In this document: piece after piece, positions 12,900 through 62,306 of the stretch | Layout of the letters: each line of letters opens with the position of its first letter | Position numbering within the stretch: position 1 is the first letter of the stretch | Source of the DNA: Chloroflexales bacterium ZM16-3 | GTDB taxonomy: Bacteria > Chloroflexota > Chloroflexia > Chloroflexales > Chloroflexaceae | Length of the DNA: 64,000 nt | Direction: 5' to 3' | Assembly: GCA_004138175.2 (NCBI GenBank) | Contig: RYFE02000005.1 | Location: 62,001-126,000 of the forward strand | The notes under the pieces: generated by a model | Seen by the model: the letters and a program-made list of their open reading frames with translations, nothing else | Databases searched by the model: none | Told to the model about the DNA's origin: nothing | Made by a program: the position numbers and the translations under genes

Positions 12900-13092
12900 A
12901 GGAAAGGATCGCCCCCCCTCTCCCGCCGCAGCGGGAGAGGGGGCTGGGGGGTGAGGGCCGTCCGGCGGCAGACGGTCAAACTGCTATGAACCTTACCAGG
13001 AAAAGATCGCCCCCCCTCTCCCGCCGCAGCGGGAGAGGGGGCTGGGGGGTGAGGGCCGTCCGGCGGCAGACGGTCAAGCTGCTATGAACCTT
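12900..13092. repeat. Tandem pair of 95-bp direct repeats
   Basis: Copies at 12900-12994 and 12998-13092 differ at about two positions and are separated by 3 bp. Each contains a stem-loop CCCCTCTCCCGC-CGCA-GCGGGAGAGGGG and ends GCTATGAACCTT or CTGCTATGAACC. They lie between the transporter permease end and the M23 gene start. The stem-loops may terminate the transporter transcript. Confidence 0.92.
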
Positions 13093-13113: not shown

Positions 13114-14052
13114 CTACCGCTTCAGCCTGGGGTCAAGCGCGTCGCGCAGACCGTCGCCCAGCAGGTTGAAGCCGAGCACCGTGAGCATGATCGCCAGGCC
13201 GGGGATGAAGACTAGGTGCGGGGCGGTGAAGACCTGGTTGCGCTCGGCGCTGAGCATCGAGCCCCACTCGGGCGTGGGCGGCTGGGCGCCCAGGCCAAGG
13301 AAGGAGAGCGCCGCCACATCGAGGATGGCCGTGCCGATGCCGAGGGTGGCCTGCACAATCAGCGGCGAGATCGCGTTGGGCATAATGTGCCCGAAGAGGA
13401 TGTTGACCGGCGCGACGCCGAGGGCGCGGGCCGCCAGCACATAGTCCTCCTCGCGGGCCGAGAGCACGCTGGCCCGGATGACGCGGGCGTAGGCCGGCAC
13501 GCTGACGATGGCGATGCCGAGCATGGCGTTCATCAGCCCGGGGCCGAGCACGCTGACGATGGCGATGGCGAGCAGCAGGAAGGGGAATGCCAGCAGCACA
13601 TCAAGCATACGCATGATCAGGTTGTCGAGCCAGCCGCCGATATAGCCGGCGAAGGAGCCAAGCAGCGTGCCGATGGTCAGCGAGATCGCGACCGTCACAA
13701 AGCCGATCAGCAGCGAGAGCCGCGCGCCGTAGATGATCCGGCTGAACAGATCGCGGAAGTTACCATCGACGCCCAGGATATGCTCGGGCTGCTCGGCCGG
13801 GCAGCCCAGCAGGTGGACGCACGGCCCGGTGCGCTTCTTAATCCCCTCCTCCTTGCCGAGCAGCACCTGCACCGGGTCGAAGGGCGCGATCAGCGGCGCA
13901 AAGATCGCCGTGAAGGCCAGCAGGCCAATCATGATCATGCCGATGATCGCCGAGCGCTGGCGCAGGAACTGACGCCATGCCCGCCGCCATGGCCCCTCGG
14001 TGCTGGATATGCTCGCAGAAGGGATGGTCACAGTATCGGCAGTGGTAGTCAT
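13114..14052 (-). CDS. Peptide/oligopeptide ABC transporter permease (DppC/OppC type)
   Basis: 312 aa. An N-terminal OppC_N-like segment has a helix near residues 38-58 (IGMIMIGLLAFTAIFAPLIA). A periplasmic insert holds four Cys/Gly-rich positions (CVHLLGCPAEQ). Five further helices follow, with the EAA loop ARALGVAPVNILFGHIMPNA that contacts the ATPase. It forms the pore with the neighbouring DppB-type permease and takes substrate from the binding protein encoded upstream. No ATPase gene adjoins, so the ATPases must be encoded elsewhere. The start is supported by TTAGGG upstream. Confidence 0.95.
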   Translation of the reverse strand: MTTTADTVTIPSASISSTEGPWRRAWRQFLRQRSAIIGMIMIGLLAFTAIFAPLIAPFDPVQVLLGKEEGIKKRTGPCVHLLGCPAEQPEHILGVDGNFRDLFSRIIYGARLSLLIGFVTVAISLTIGTLLGSFAGYIGGWLDNLIMRMLDVLLAFPFLLLAIAIVSVLGPGLMNAMLGIAIVSVPAYARVIRASVLSAREEDYVLAARALGVAPVNILFGHIMPNAISPLIVQATLGIGTAILDVAALSFLGLGAQPPTPEWGSMLSAERNQVFTAPHLVFIPGLAIMLTVLGFNLLGDGLRDALDPRLKR

Positions 14053-14060
14053 AAGCCCTA

Positions 14061-14138
14061 ATTGCAGATTGCAGATTGTAGATTGTAGAGCGATTCAGCG
14101 CGTAATCTGCAATCTGCAATCTATAATCTGCAATCTAC
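14061..14138. repeat. Heptad array (CAATCTG)n with inverted arms
   Basis: Left arm 14061-14088 is ATTGCAGATTGCAG-type. The loop is AGCGATTCAGCGCG. Right arm 14103-14138 is AATCTGCAATCTGC-type. It fills the gap between the two permease genes and its last unit runs into the TAG of the dppB-like gene. Confidence 0.92.
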
Positions 14139-15214
14139 TAGTAACGTATGCGTGGGTCGAGCAGGCCGTAGGAGAGATCAACGAGCAGGTTGACGACCAC
14201 ATAGCCGAGCGCGATCGCCAGGGTGAAGCCCTGGATGATCGGGTAGTCGCGGGTGGTGATCGCGTCGAAGAGGATGCGGCCGACGCCCGCCAGGTTAAAG
14301 ATCGTCTCGGTCAGCACCGCGCCGCCAAAGATCGTGCCGAGCTGGAGGCCGACGATCGTGATCACCGGCATCAGCGCGTTGCGGAAGGCGTGGCGCATCG
14401 TGACGGCTATGTCTGACAGGCCCTTGGCGCGGGCCGTGCGCACATAGTCGCGGCCGAGCACCTCCAGCATAGCCGAGCGGGTCATCCGGGCGATGATCGC
14501 CATCGGGATGGTGCCGAGGGCCAGGGCGGGCAGGATCATGTGGCGCAGCGCGTCGCCGAAGACCTCCCACTGGAAGGTGATCAGGCTGTTGAAGAAGTAG
14601 AGGTTGCCGAAGAACTGGAGCAGCTGGCCTGTCCCAGACTTCAGATCGGGGGCCCAGCCCCACAGCTCATAGAAGGGCACGCTGGTGATGCCCGAGGAGA
14701 GGCGGCCCGAGGGCGGCAGCTGGAAAGGCGTGTCTTTGAGCACCAGCGCGAAGATATAGGCCAGCATCAGGCCGAGCCAGAAGATCGGCATCGAGACGCC
14801 GACATTCGAGCCGACCATCGTCACCACATCGATCGCCGAGTTGCGCCTGAGTGCGGCGATGATGCCGAGCGGAACCCCGACGACCATGGCCACCAGCAGC
14901 GCCAGCACGCCAAGCTCGACGGTGGTGGGCAGGCGCTCGGCGATCAGCTGGGTGACGGGCCGGGCCAGCCGGATCGAGGTGCCGAAGTCGCCGCCGAACA
15001 CATCGCGCAGATAGACCCCAAACTGCACGATGATCGGCTTATCGAGCCCCTTGTCGGCGTTAAACTTCGCGCAGACGAGCTCGGTGGCCTTCTCGCCAAG
15101 CTGGGCCGTGCATGGGTCGCCGGGGATGAGCCGCACCAGGAAGAAGGTGACGGCGAGCACGCCGAAGAGGACGGGGATGGCGACCAGGATGCGTTTGATC
15201 GTGTATTGGAGCAT
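14138..15214 (-). CDS. Peptide/oligopeptide ABC transporter permease (DppB/OppB type)
   Basis: 358 aa from the ATG at 15214 (MLQYTIKRILVAIPVL), which is where the family normally begins. An ATG 9 bp upstream is also possible, and neither has a clear ribosome site. The first helix is LVAIPVLFGVLAVTFFLVRL, followed by the hallmark IPGDPC. Later helices hold the EAA loop TARAKGLSDIAVTMRHAFRN. It pairs with the DppC-type permease. The gene's 5' edge abuts a CAACATT palindrome and its stop abuts a CAATCTG array, so both of its junctions were remodelled by heptad repeats. Confidence 0.94.
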   Translation of the reverse strand: MLQYTIKRILVAIPVLFGVLAVTFFLVRLIPGDPCTAQLGEKATELVCAKFNADKGLDKPIIVQFGVYLRDVFGGDFGTSIRLARPVTQLIAERLPTTVELGVLALLVAMVVGVPLGIIAALRRNSAIDVVTMVGSNVGVSMPIFWLGLMLAYIFALVLKDTPFQLPPSGRLSSGITSVPFYELWGWAPDLKSGTGQLLQFFGNLYFFNSLITFQWEVFGDALRHMILPALALGTIPMAIIARMTRSAMLEVLGRDYVRTARAKGLSDIAVTMRHAFRNALMPVITIVGLQLGTIFGGAVLTETIFNLAGVGRILFDAITTRDYPIIQGFTLAIALGYVVVNLLVDLSYGLLDPRIRY

Positions 15215-15220
15215 GTGATA

Positions 15221-15280
15221 CATGTTGAATGTTAAATGTTGAATGTTGAATTCAACATTCAACATTCAACATTCAACATT
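15221..15280. repeat. CAACATT heptad palindrome
   Basis: Four CAACATT units on one arm mirror four AATGTTG units on the other, meeting at GAATTC (15248-15253), with one mismatched pair over about 58 bp. It lies between the binding-protein gene and dppB on the minus strand. The CAT at 15221-15223 gives a possible ATG start. Confidence 0.93.
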
Positions 15281-15290
15281 TAGACGTGAG

Positions 15291-17108
15291 CTACTGGGCC
15301 GGCGCGTTCAGGTAGCCGCCCCAGAGCGCCGAGAAGTAGGTGAAGCTGCCGGTGCGGCCTGTGTGGAGCGGGTTCGCCGCGTCCCACTGAACCGCCCAGG
15401 ACGTCACCACGTCATTGGCGGTCAGCTCCGAGCCGTCGTGGAACTTGACGCCCGCGCGGAGCTTGCAGGTCCACTCGGTCAGGTCGGCGTTGGGGTCACA
15501 GCTCTCGGCCAGGCCAGGCACCACGGCGGTGCCGCCCTGCTCGTAGGAGAGCAGCCCCTCGGTGACCTGCTCGCAGACGCGCAGCGACTCGCCGTCGGTC
15601 TCATCGGCGCAGTAGAGGCTGGCGGGCTCACCGTTCTGCATCCAGACGAAGGTGCTGCGGCCGCCCGGATCCATCGCGGCGAAGTACTCATCGCCGAGCG
15701 GGCTAACCTGGGCGTTCTTTACGTCGGCCTTGTAGGCCACGCCCGAGCCACCGTGGGCGATCGGAACCATGGGCACGTGCTGGGCGATCAGGTTGTTGGC
15801 CTCGACGTAGAAGGGCGCGCGCTCCTCATCGGTCGGCTTCGAGGCACCATCCTTGAGCGCGGCAACGATGTCATCGAACTTATTGCCGAACTGCTTCGAA
15901 GCACCACCGCCGAAGTGGTAGTCGAGGAAGTTGGTCATGTCGGGGTAGTCTGCGCCCCAGCCGAGCATGTGCAGACCCTTCAGCTCACCGGCGCTGGCCT
16001 GGTCGAGGTAGGTGCCCGACTCGACCACATTGATCTTGGCGGTGATGCCGATGTCGGCGAGCTGGGCCTGGAGATCCTCGGCCACGCGGCCGGGCTCGGG
16101 CAGGTAGCTGCGCACAACATCGCGGTACTCCAGGGTGGTCTCGAAGCCATCGGGGAAGCCGGCCTCGGTAAGCAGCGCCTTAGCCGCCTCGGGATCATAG
16201 GCGGGCCAATCGTCGCCGGTGCAGCCGTTGGGGATGGAGCAGGGCGTGAAGTGGCTCGCCACCTCGGAGCCGGCCGGGTAGAAGTTATCGACAATGCGCT
16301 GGCGATCAACACCGATGGCGATGGCCTGCCGCACCTTCTCGTTGTCGAAGGGCGGGTAGGTGTTGTTCATGCCAAGGTAGAAGACGTTGAGCGCCGGGCG
16401 ATTGAGCAGCTGGAGGGTCGAGTCGGCGGCGATGACCTCGAAGGCGTCGGGTGCCGGGTTGTCGATACCGTCCACCGTGCCGGACTGCAGCTCCAGCAGG
16501 CGCTGGGCGGCCTCGGCGCTCCAGCGGATCACCACCGTCTCCGGCAGACCCTTGGTGCCCCAGTAGTCATCGAAGCGCTTGAGGGTAATGTTATCGCCGG
16601 GGGTCCAGCTCTCGACCATGTAGGGGCCGGTGCCGATCGGCTTCGTCAGCAGGTCGCCGTTGCCGCCGGTCGACTCCAGGTAGGCGGCGGGCAGGATGTC
16701 GAACGAGTTGAAGGCGGCCTTCGCGCGGAAGGCCGGGTCGGGCGTGCAGAGCGTAAACTTGACGGTGCTGGCGTCGGTGGCGGCGATCTCTTTGATCTCG
16801 CCGGTGTAGCCGTTGCCGCACTCCTTGGCGGCCACGGCCATCAGGTCGCCCTCGGTGTAGACAGCCTGGCTCTCGGCGGCGGGAGCCTCGGCGGTGGGAG
16901 CCTCGGTGGCCTCAGCGGCGGGGACCTCGGTGGCCTCAGCGGCGGAGGCCTCGGTGGCGGCTACAGGAGCCTCAGTGGCGACTACAGGAGCCGTGGTGGC
17001 GGCGGGGGCCGCCGGAGTCGAGCCGCAGGCGGCGAGCACGGGGATCAGCAGCATGAGCAGCAGGCTGCCGGCGATCACGCGCCGCCCTGCCATAGAGTGT
17101 GTGTTCAA
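15291..17108 (-). CDS. Extracellular solute-binding protein, family 5 fold, circularly permuted
   Basis: 605 aa. The signal peptide carries lipobox LAAC and an Ala/Thr/Glu/Pro linker follows. The start is TTG at 17108 with GAGG upstream, or ATG at 17093. The mature part begins with what is normally the middle of a DppA-like protein (STVKFTLCTPDPAF, then PIGTGPYMVESWTPGD, FDDYWG, KVRQAIAIGVDRQRIV). The region normally at the N-terminus is at the very end (EQVTEGLLSY, VVPGLAES, LRAGVKFHDGSELTANDVV, SGSFTYFSALWG-like). The family captures peptides or oligosaccharides outside the cell. All fold elements seem present but in rotated order. It is the first gene of the transporter operon. Confidence 0.93.
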   Translation of the reverse strand: MNTHSMAGRRVIAGSLLLMLLIPVLAACGSTPAAPAATTAPVVATEAPVAATEASAAEATEVPAAEATEAPTAEAPAAESQAVYTEGDLMAVAAKECGNGYTGEIKEIAATDASTVKFTLCTPDPAFRAKAAFNSFDILPAAYLESTGGNGDLLTKPIGTGPYMVESWTPGDNITLKRFDDYWGTKGLPETVVIRWSAEAAQRLLELQSGTVDGIDNPAPDAFEVIAADSTLQLLNRPALNVFYLGMNNTYPPFDNEKVRQAIAIGVDRQRIVDNFYPAGSEVASHFTPCSIPNGCTGDDWPAYDPEAAKALLTEAGFPDGFETTLEYRDVVRSYLPEPGRVAEDLQAQLADIGITAKINVVESGTYLDQASAGELKGLHMLGWGADYPDMTNFLDYHFGGGASKQFGNKFDDIVAALKDGASKPTDEERAPFYVEANNLIAQHVPMVPIAHGGSGVAYKADVKNAQVSPLGDEYFAAMDPGGRSTFVWMQNGEPASLYCADETDGESLRVCEQVTEGLLSYEQGGTAVVPGLAESCDPNADLTEWTCKLRAGVKFHDGSELTANDVVTSWAVQWDAANPLHTGRTGSFTYFSALWGGYLNAPAQ

Positions 17109-18833: not shown

Positions 18834-18974
18834 TTGCAGATTGCGGATTGCAACCGGCCCTCGCCTGGATTCTAGCGGGTTTGCGCGGCGCGTCAAGTCA
18901 GCCCCGCCATTGATCCAGGGCTAAGACGTTGTGCCCAATCTGCAATCTGCAATCTGCAATCTGCAATCTGCAAT
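18834..18974. repeat. Split heptad array upstream of pheT
   Basis: A short arm at 18834-18850 (TTGCAGATTGCGGATTG) and a long arm at 18936-18974 (CAATCTG repeated about five times) are in opposite orientation, about 85 bp apart. The long arm ends where the pheT -35 element begins. Confidence 0.9.
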
Positions 18975-57580: not shown

Positions 57581-57650
57581 GATTGCAGATTGTAGATTGT
57601 AGATTTGGCGCTGCAATCTGCAATCTGCAATCTGCAATCTGCAATCTGCA
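57581..57650. repeat. Heptad array (CAATCTG)n with inverted arms
   Basis: The left arm GATTGCAGATTGTAGATTG is 26 bp, the loop is GGCG and the right arm is about five CAATCTG units. It lies 22 bp from the protease start codon, between divergent genes. Confidence 0.93.
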
Positions 57651-62204: not shown

Positions 62205-62306
62205 GTGATTGTAGATTGTAGATTGCAGATTAGGGTGCCGCGCTGCAATCTGCAATCTGCAATCTGCAATCTGCAATCTGCAATCTGCGGCCTGCAATCT
62301 GCAATC
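62196..62306. repeat. Heptad array (CAATCTG)n with inverted arms
   Basis: The left arm is GCAGATTAGGTGATTGTAG-like and begins in the last codons of ctaA. The loop is GGGTGCCGCG. The right arm (62243-62306) has about eight CAATCTG units with one irregular CGGC. It is the longest array in the window. Confidence 0.93.

Follow-up and report, generated by a model that had tools for sequence, protein, structure and literature searches.

A circularly permuted DppA-like binding lipoprotein of Chloroflexota and its relatives with two further block orders

Natural circular permutations are usually known as a single ancient difference that separates distantly related proteins and reveals neither a direction nor intermediate steps. 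Among the families that have been permuted more than once are the DNA methyltransferases (PMC3320104) and the cpRAS GTPases (PMC2430557), as far as the accessible portions of both papers go. For binding proteins, the accessible text on TpMglB-2 from Treponema pallidum describes a binding lipoprotein that is circularly permuted by nature and probably serves an ABC importer ('Type Ic / Cluster Bc'), mentions relatives of the same topology and raises anchoring as a possible reason for the permutation (PMC4990184). Tandem binding domains, by which more than one domain is served to a translocon, are described for GlnPQ and OpuA in the available parts of two further sources (PMC8025302, PMC11065425). 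Here we describe a DppA-like lipoprotein gene from the phylum Chloroflexota with a rotated block order, together with relatives that carry this order or one of two others.

The gene was found in a window of 64,000 nucleotides (the whole stretch of DNA that was analyzed) from Chloroflexales bacterium ZM16-3. It occupies positions 15291-17093 on the minus strand and encodes 600 amino acids counted from the ATG at 17093, which stands right at the signal peptide; an upstream alternative start is the TTG at 17108, and the stop codon is at 15291-15293. Residue numbers of the window protein (denoted q) are counted from the ATG at 17093. The gene consists of the following parts and is followed by two permease genes:

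17025..17093, minus strand: signal peptide and lipobox LAAC (C at q23), residues 1-23, recognized by eye
16842..17024, minus strand: linker of ~60 residues (q24-84), rich in A, E, T and P, from the lipid anchor to the new N-terminus
16353..16841, minus strand: block B, q85-247, with TVKFTL, GTGPY and DYWG, normally placed after the N-terminal block (DppA match)
16155..16352, minus strand: block b, q248-313, with VRQAI; the third order (2 genomes) is cut at the left edge of this block
15663..16154, minus strand: block C, q314-477, which forms the C-terminal part in the usual order; the second order (10 genomes) is cut at its left edge (q313-317)
15642..15677, minus strand: fused ancestral C- and N-termini, q473-484, a junction common to the B-C-A and the re-permuted relatives
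15300..15662, minus strand: block A, q478-598, normally N-terminal and here C-terminal, ending FTYFSALWGGYLNAP (DppA match; helix/strand pattern)
14138..15265, minus strand: DppB-type permease, BPD_transp_1 and BPD_transp_1_N (Pfam); downstream position conserved in relatives; the true start may lie slightly inside this listed ORF
13114..14052, minus strand: DppC-type permease, BPD_transp_1 and OppC_N (Pfam); downstream position conserved

The initial annotation had proposed that the chain is rotated, not truncated, and had quoted family-5 motifs in rotated order, all of which are indeed present in the order stated. In a phmmer comparison with the PDB, residues q95-472 correspond to residues 119-502 of E. 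coli DppA (1dpe) with 175.6 bits, and q513-590 correspond to residues 35-118 with 36.5 bits. The two pieces thus join exactly at DppA 118/119, and the block order is B-C-A versus the usual A-B-C, as the proposal had it. The 1dpe alignment omits the first ~34 residues of DppA; block A is essentially complete, because the alignment with 8z1y begins at q484. No duplicated block was found in the permuted protein. All segments are kept, their order is rotated and the old termini are fused, as in a circular permutation, and chance is excluded by the match scores together with the recurrence of this arrangement in 107 distinct proteins, that of the window among them. The signal and linker placed on the new N-terminus by the same annotation were likewise recovered, and the linker site is also the site of extra binding domains in fused relatives (see below).

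Profile searches assigned the window protein to a single Pfam family, SBP_bac_5 (PF00496), at 289.7 bits (cut-off 32.4), and the match falls into two stretches. The best stretch places profile positions 58-366 on residues 96-399, and the canonical order of the profile is not followed along the protein. The NCBIfam equivalog for DppA (NF043070) gave 221.1 bits, far under its cut-off of 1005; profiles of a single order match such permuted proteins piecewise only. On these profile matches, the window protein is a member of SBP_bac_5 by descent that carries a circular permutation.

Several repeats were noted around the gene. A 27-bp hairpin with a 4-nt loop and 7-base repeats (ATGTTGA/TCAACAT) at 15222-15279 is located between the stop of the binding protein and the likely start of dppB (-38.5 kcal/mol, z -9.5 versus shuffles). 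The hairpin and the 5' end of the dppB ORF as listed overlap, translation of this permease probably starting downstream of the listed start. The hairpin could determine the relative amounts of binding protein and permease. More 7-base tandem repeats (CTGCAAT-like) are located in the window at 14104-14136, 18936-18974, 57611-57650 and 62243-62306. Just 3' of dppC, at 12900-13092, a 98-bp unit is present in two copies with 97% matches and contains a G+C-rich inverted repeat (by eye).

The structure of the mature window protein (524 residues) was predicted with ColabFold from 69 of the 107 B-C-A sequences. The model is a compact single fold of the parent type with a mean pLDDT of 96.1, a pTM of 0.92 and no segment below 50. 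Aligned in sequence order, model residues 1..403 superimpose on residues 127..537 of 5f1q (Z 31.9, 2.1 A, 387 residues), and 382 residues superimpose on 1dpp (Z 31.4, 1.8 A); some other chains align with large rmsd (1dpe, 6.6 A). These alignments run to the C-terminal ends of the DppA-type chains and assign no partner to the final 121 residues of the model, which is what a rotated chain must give with an aligner bound to sequence order. The best Foldseek matches also cover ~387 columns (5f1q, TM 0.69 by query length), with some lower rows of 440-480 columns at 7-9 A; both programs are bound to sequence order and neither follows a permutation. From the confidence of the prediction we infer that block A takes its position in the N-lobe.

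The same block order is widespread in Chloroflexota. A contiguous match across the C-A junction was found in 52 of the 400 sampled genomes of the phylum, including the window's own (E <= 1e-45), and the carriers include the single-contig assemblies G045, G234 and G356. With the sampled genomes added, 107 distinct B-C-A proteins were counted, that of the window included. Full-length orthologues with 70-78% identity occur in 6 other genomes of the window's genus or family (41 near genomes searched), and a near relative was identified in a Chloroflexales bin (82% identity). Six exact peptide patterns yielded 69 related loci from 84,980 species representatives. Among the relatives in other phyla, those with both blocks are canonical and the remaining ones lack a block-A match; the 12 plasmid rows listed for the C-A query, out of 93 records, are all two-piece matches. 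A dppB gene lies within 2.5 kb downstream of 124 of the 140 B-C-A genes having more than 1.2 kb of room, and was not found within this distance in the remaining 16. One B-C-A open frame begins only at ~q160 (L169 4995-6314, in G389 with 3 contigs) and represents a broken gene or a frameshift.

The two alternatives named in the initial annotation thus fall away: the predicted fold does not present the C-terminal block as a second, partial domain, and a reassembly error is ruled out by the 52 genomes, single-contig assemblies among them. Its expectations of a closed two-lobed fold (one closed fold in the model), of a natural permutation with an intact operon (a single predicted fold, dppB and dppC downstream) and of the same order elsewhere in the phylum were borne out. 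That account was incomplete rather than wrong, the re-permutations, the N-terminal fusions and the covarying cysteine pairs described below being absent from it.

Two further block orders were identified among the relatives. The second order, C-A-B, is cut between q313 and q317 and occurs in 10 of the 147 genomes of one family, where the proteins are collinear with the query L077; these ten include the genome of L077 itself, one in which the gene is cut by the contig end and one with an in-frame TAG. The third order is cut at q248, before VRQAI, and was found in two of the five genomes of another family (89% identical to each other; L074 is of this order); beside these two, a third genome carries a B-C-A protein with 64-66% identity. 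In the 396 sampled genomes of the class, the same two were the only full-length matches of the third order. By eye, the re-permuted proteins with an intact start have a signal peptide of their own at the new N-terminus, and dppB and dppC follow downstream in all 12 re-permuted loci. Identity between the orders, compared block by block, is 46-70%. Proteins of the second and third orders, with open frames of 463-677 aa, showed no fused extra domain. In the window model, both cuts fall into loops: q313-317 between helix H225-234 and strand E241-247, and q248 between strand E160-166 and helix H176-185. The model of a second-order protein was poor (pLDDT 68.7, pTM 0.64) and was set aside. Together with the trees described below, these orders show that the gene was re-permuted at least twice within its family.

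In an eleventh second-order genome (G561), only the first part of the C-A-B gene is present on the contig (L227 5242-6933, C222), and the frame continues to the end of the contig in unrelated sequence that by eye resembles a restriction enzyme. This is either a chimeric contig or a gene fusion.

For phylogenetic analysis, the proteins were rotated by script to a common block order. With 15 of the 147 distinct proteins left out for incomplete blocks and 11 of the 107 B-C-A rows thinned, a quick tree of 121 rows was obtained; a careful bootstrapped tree was built from 55 of these rows, hand-chosen with the longest branches excluded. Permuted proteins stand on one side and canonical relatives, mostly from the window's own taxonomic order, on the other, with support of 98 in the 121-row tree and 100/100 in the 55-row tree. 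In the latter, the second order forms a clade (100/100) nested in the B-C-A proteins, and the third order (100/100) stands beside its own family's B-C-A protein (100/99). The sister of the second order varies between trees, and in the quick tree this order shows two changes, its cut-off member L184 being labelled 'partial'. AU tests, with groups set by block order and not derived from the trees, rejected a B-C-A clade without the re-permuted orders (p-AU 1e-59) as well as a single clade of the two re-permuted orders (p-AU 1e-5). A tree of 118 DppB permeases, which is independent of the rotation of the binding proteins, shows the same nesting of both re-permuted orders. These trees are most simply explained by one initial rotation, which they do not prove because the canonical outgroup is limited.

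The connection between blocks A and B carries a further trace of this history. Measured between fixed points, it has 59 residues in the second order (9 of 9 proteins) and 53 in the third (2 of 2), compared with 34-38 residues in 14 nearer canonical rows (corrected for differing left anchors) and ~17-20 in three canonical rows of other phyla; in L017, a distantly related canonical paralogue encoded by the window's genome, it has ~51 residues and lacks the motif described next. The longer connection of the re-permuted proteins contains a CDYGG/CEYGG motif that lies near the N-terminus in most B-C-A proteins (CGNGYTGE in the window protein). The retained cysteine segment and the longer connection imply that a B-C-A form most likely preceded the re-permuted genes, in which the now internal cysteine segment is a scar of the former N-terminus.

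Up to four pairs of cysteines covary among these proteins: q92/116, q285/291, q495/507 and q532/543. Three of them are either present or absent as a whole in the B-C-A proteins, namely q285/q291 (73 present, 33 absent, 0 half), q495/q507 (102 present, 5 absent, 0 half) and q532/q543 (59 present, 48 absent, 0 half). For q92/q116, both cysteines occur in 84 proteins and q116 alone in 7, and a looser test for an upstream cysteine gives 104 of 106. The second order keeps q92/116 and q495/507, with q285/291 and q532/543 in 0 of 9, and the third order has q532/543 in 0 of 2. One of 14 canonical rows has q495/507, and no other pair occurs there. The covarying pairs are probably disulfides, and one of them, if so, would staple a hairpin at the B-C-A N-terminus.

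Additional binding domains precede the permuted domain in 34 of 149 distinct B-C-A proteins, a figure that gives no prevalence, as long open frames were deliberately collected. The added domains are SBP_bac_3 (26 proteins), Peripla_BP_6 (5), two Peripla_BP_6 (2) and Peripla_BP_6 with SBP_bac_3 (1). A Pfam scan covering 36 of the 41 N-terminal extensions recognized SBP_bac_3 in 27 and Peripla_BP_6 in 8. On the 133-row tree, the SBP_bac_3 label requires 11 changes, at least five of them forced by well-supported branches.

Many of the SBP_bac_3 fusions are accompanied by a further permease. In loci L274 and L290, the two genes behind dppC encode BPD_transp_1 and ABC_tran proteins (Pfam), which we take to be a HisM-type permease and a GlnQ-type ATPase. 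Counting only genes for which over 3.3 kb of downstream sequence was available, we found a match to this permease (E <= 1e-8) within 4.5 kb downstream of 16 of 21 SBP_bac_3-fused genes versus 1 of 77 others, counts biased toward the permease in fused genes because downstream DNA was extended mainly for these. The Fisher p of 3e-13 for this association is overstated, the rows being related. Twelve of the 16 have a match to the ATPase as well. The single case among the 77 is the unfused L295, in which the permease match was already there before the downstream DNA was extended. When only the original loci with enough room are considered (E <= 1e-15), the permease is found in 6 of 8 fused versus 0 of 66 unfused loci, 12 of the latter having a weak ATPase-only match (29-36% identity). 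No further permease was found within reach of the SBP_bac_3-fused genes L285, L287, L292, L301 and L303, nor in the six fusions with Peripla_BP_6 only (0 of 6). Taken together, the fusions suggest, at the level of sequence, that the new N-terminus tolerates large additions and is an attachment place for other binding domains.

Some individual N-termini are of separate interest. Upstream of the SBP_bac_3-fused gene in L285 (7416-9612) are a separate SBP_bac_3 gene and a gene for a sulfatase-modifying-factor-like (FGE) protein; a search of the 2.5 kb behind the fused gene revealed neither dppB nor dppC. A haem-binding, cytochrome-like domain (Dehyd-heme_bind) precedes SBP_bac_3 and the permuted domain in 3 of the 36 extensions, in L278 (2939-5788) and probably also in L279 and L280. 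The protein of L308 (2686-4995, G676) has no lipoprotein signal at its N-terminus and begins with a seemingly cytoplasmic segment and a putative TM helix (by eye), followed by the permuted SBP_bac_5 domain. In L234 (1908-5165, G416:C1393), a protein of 1086 aa combines caspase and FHA domains, a putative TM helix (by eye) and the permuted SBP_bac_5 domain, with neither dppB nor dppC within 2.5 kb downstream; this paralogue looks as if it were a ligand receptor with a caspase effector.

We consider it very probable that the window gene encodes a lipid-anchored binding protein of a DppBC-type ABC importer and belongs to a Chloroflexota family which arose from a circularly permuted DppA-like gene and was later rotated again. 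In the proposed scenario, the old termini of an ancestral DppA-like gene would have been fused at the C-A junction and new ends opened between blocks A and B, which would have relocated anchor and linker to the boundary of A and B, away from the old N-terminus. The rotated chain is predicted to fold as one two-lobed binding protein, which would capture a solute, probably peptide-like, and hand it to the neighbouring DppB-DppC; we infer the role in dipeptide import from the operon neighbours. Two later rotations, at the loops near q313-317 and q248, would have shifted the anchor again. The new N-terminus appears to accept whole binding domains, often SBP_bac_3 with a further permease in the gene cluster, and this permease would presumably serve the added domain.

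Each rotation may have started from a tandem duplication whose outer parts were then lost, a route favoured because tandem copies do occur (in G369 and G480). A doubled or partly doubled intermediate was sought among the ORFs of at least 150 aa in 291 loci, none of which contained a repeated block, and the flanks of eight re-permuted loci held no remnants of lost outer parts (best E 0.083). Since neither was found, the route of the rotation is unproven. Several candidates for intermediates were rejected. The long open frames are not doubled genes, as their extra length consists of other domains in 36 of 41 cases scanned; in L275, L163, L306, L158 and L164 it looks like an overlapping spurious frame (by eye). 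The 1289-aa frame of G480 and the split gene of G550 were rejected on inspection.

The strongest competing route is fission and fusion, in which the gene was split into two ORFs that were rejoined in the other order. It would yield the same product as duplication, according to the accessible text of PMC3320104, and the G550 locus has B and C-A in separate frames. The break in G550, however, holds an unknown residue and most plausibly reflects a gap in the assembly, a clean two-gene form was not seen among the loci read, and the tandem copies that are the substrate of the duplication route do occur, although its doubled intermediate was likewise not found. We therefore regard fission as unlikely, if a serious contender, and retain duplication as the preferred route.

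A different origin of block A, gained from another binding-protein gene with loss of the original N-terminal block, is a possibility that the available part of the TpMglB-2 paper raises for that protein (PMC4990184). In the present family, the identity to canonical relatives from the window's taxonomic order is 33-49% for block A (higher figures over ~80 residues, lower over ~115) and 32-39% for the core. Both parts thus look comparably related to the same lineage, which makes a foreign block A very improbable. It is hardly credible, too, that the permuted protein has become a sensor domain that lost its role in import: the caspase/FHA paralogue of L234 and the 16 B-C-A genes without dppB would fit this, but dppB follows the great majority of the B-C-A genes, and the window gene has both dppB and dppC. 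An assembly or binning artefact, suggested by the fact that most named relatives are metagenome bins and that the contigs of G561 and G422 are chimeric or cut, can be practically dismissed given the spread of the order, its single-contig carriers and the conserved downstream permeases, and is already refuted for B-C-A, the third order standing on only two genomes at 89% identity.

The family, with its conserved adjoining permease, unites one older rotation and two more recent ones with a canonical outgroup, the direction of change being backed by the trees and by the scar. With natural proteins that are 46-70% identical, the choice between duplication and fission, as well as the benefit of rotation, are open to experiment. 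The fusions suggest one such benefit, an N-terminus where other binding domains can attach. More tentatively, and at somewhat less than even confidence, we propose that the chain ends themselves are evolving: the site of anchoring and fusion would have moved three times, the N-terminus would act as a docking port, and a fused lipoprotein would feed two translocons from one operon. The series thus offers natural material for studying the rewiring of proteins.

Permuted binding proteins were already known from TpMglB-2. Among the matches listed in our search of the open-licence literature, we met no paper on a permuted SBP_bac_5 protein, no family of three orders with resolved direction and no mixed-class binding-domain lipoprotein with a further permease, so the family-5 case, the three orders and the mixed-class fusions, as read from the sequences, appear not to have been described there.

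Like DppA and other SBP_bac_5 proteins, the window protein belongs to the family by profile, has a matching predicted fold and adjoins DppB/DppC-type permeases; unlike DppA, it has a rotated block order, an anchor at the A/B boundary and up to four covarying cysteine pairs. It falls outside Type Ic / Cluster Bc, having no Cluster B sugar-binding domain and SBP_bac_5 only by Pfam. TpMglB-2 has a glucose-binding Type I/Cluster B fold, for which one permutation is described in the accessible text (PMC4990184), whereas the present family is SBP_bac_5 with three orders. Going by the same text, the family is also set apart from TpMglB-2 by the other binding domains fused in some of its B-C-A proteins. 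The DNA methyltransferases and cpRAS GTPases are alike in having several cut points or documented intermediates, as far as the accessible parts of these papers extend (PMC3320104, PMC2430557). In contrast to what those parts describe, all orders here belong to a single family in a single phylum, a conserved permease lies alongside, and a tree resolves the direction of change. The two binding domains of GlnPQ are of one class. In the available descriptions of GlnPQ, both domains are linked to the permease itself, whereas in the present family domains of different Pfam families are combined in one lipoprotein, and a further permease, often with an ATPase, is found in the gene cluster.
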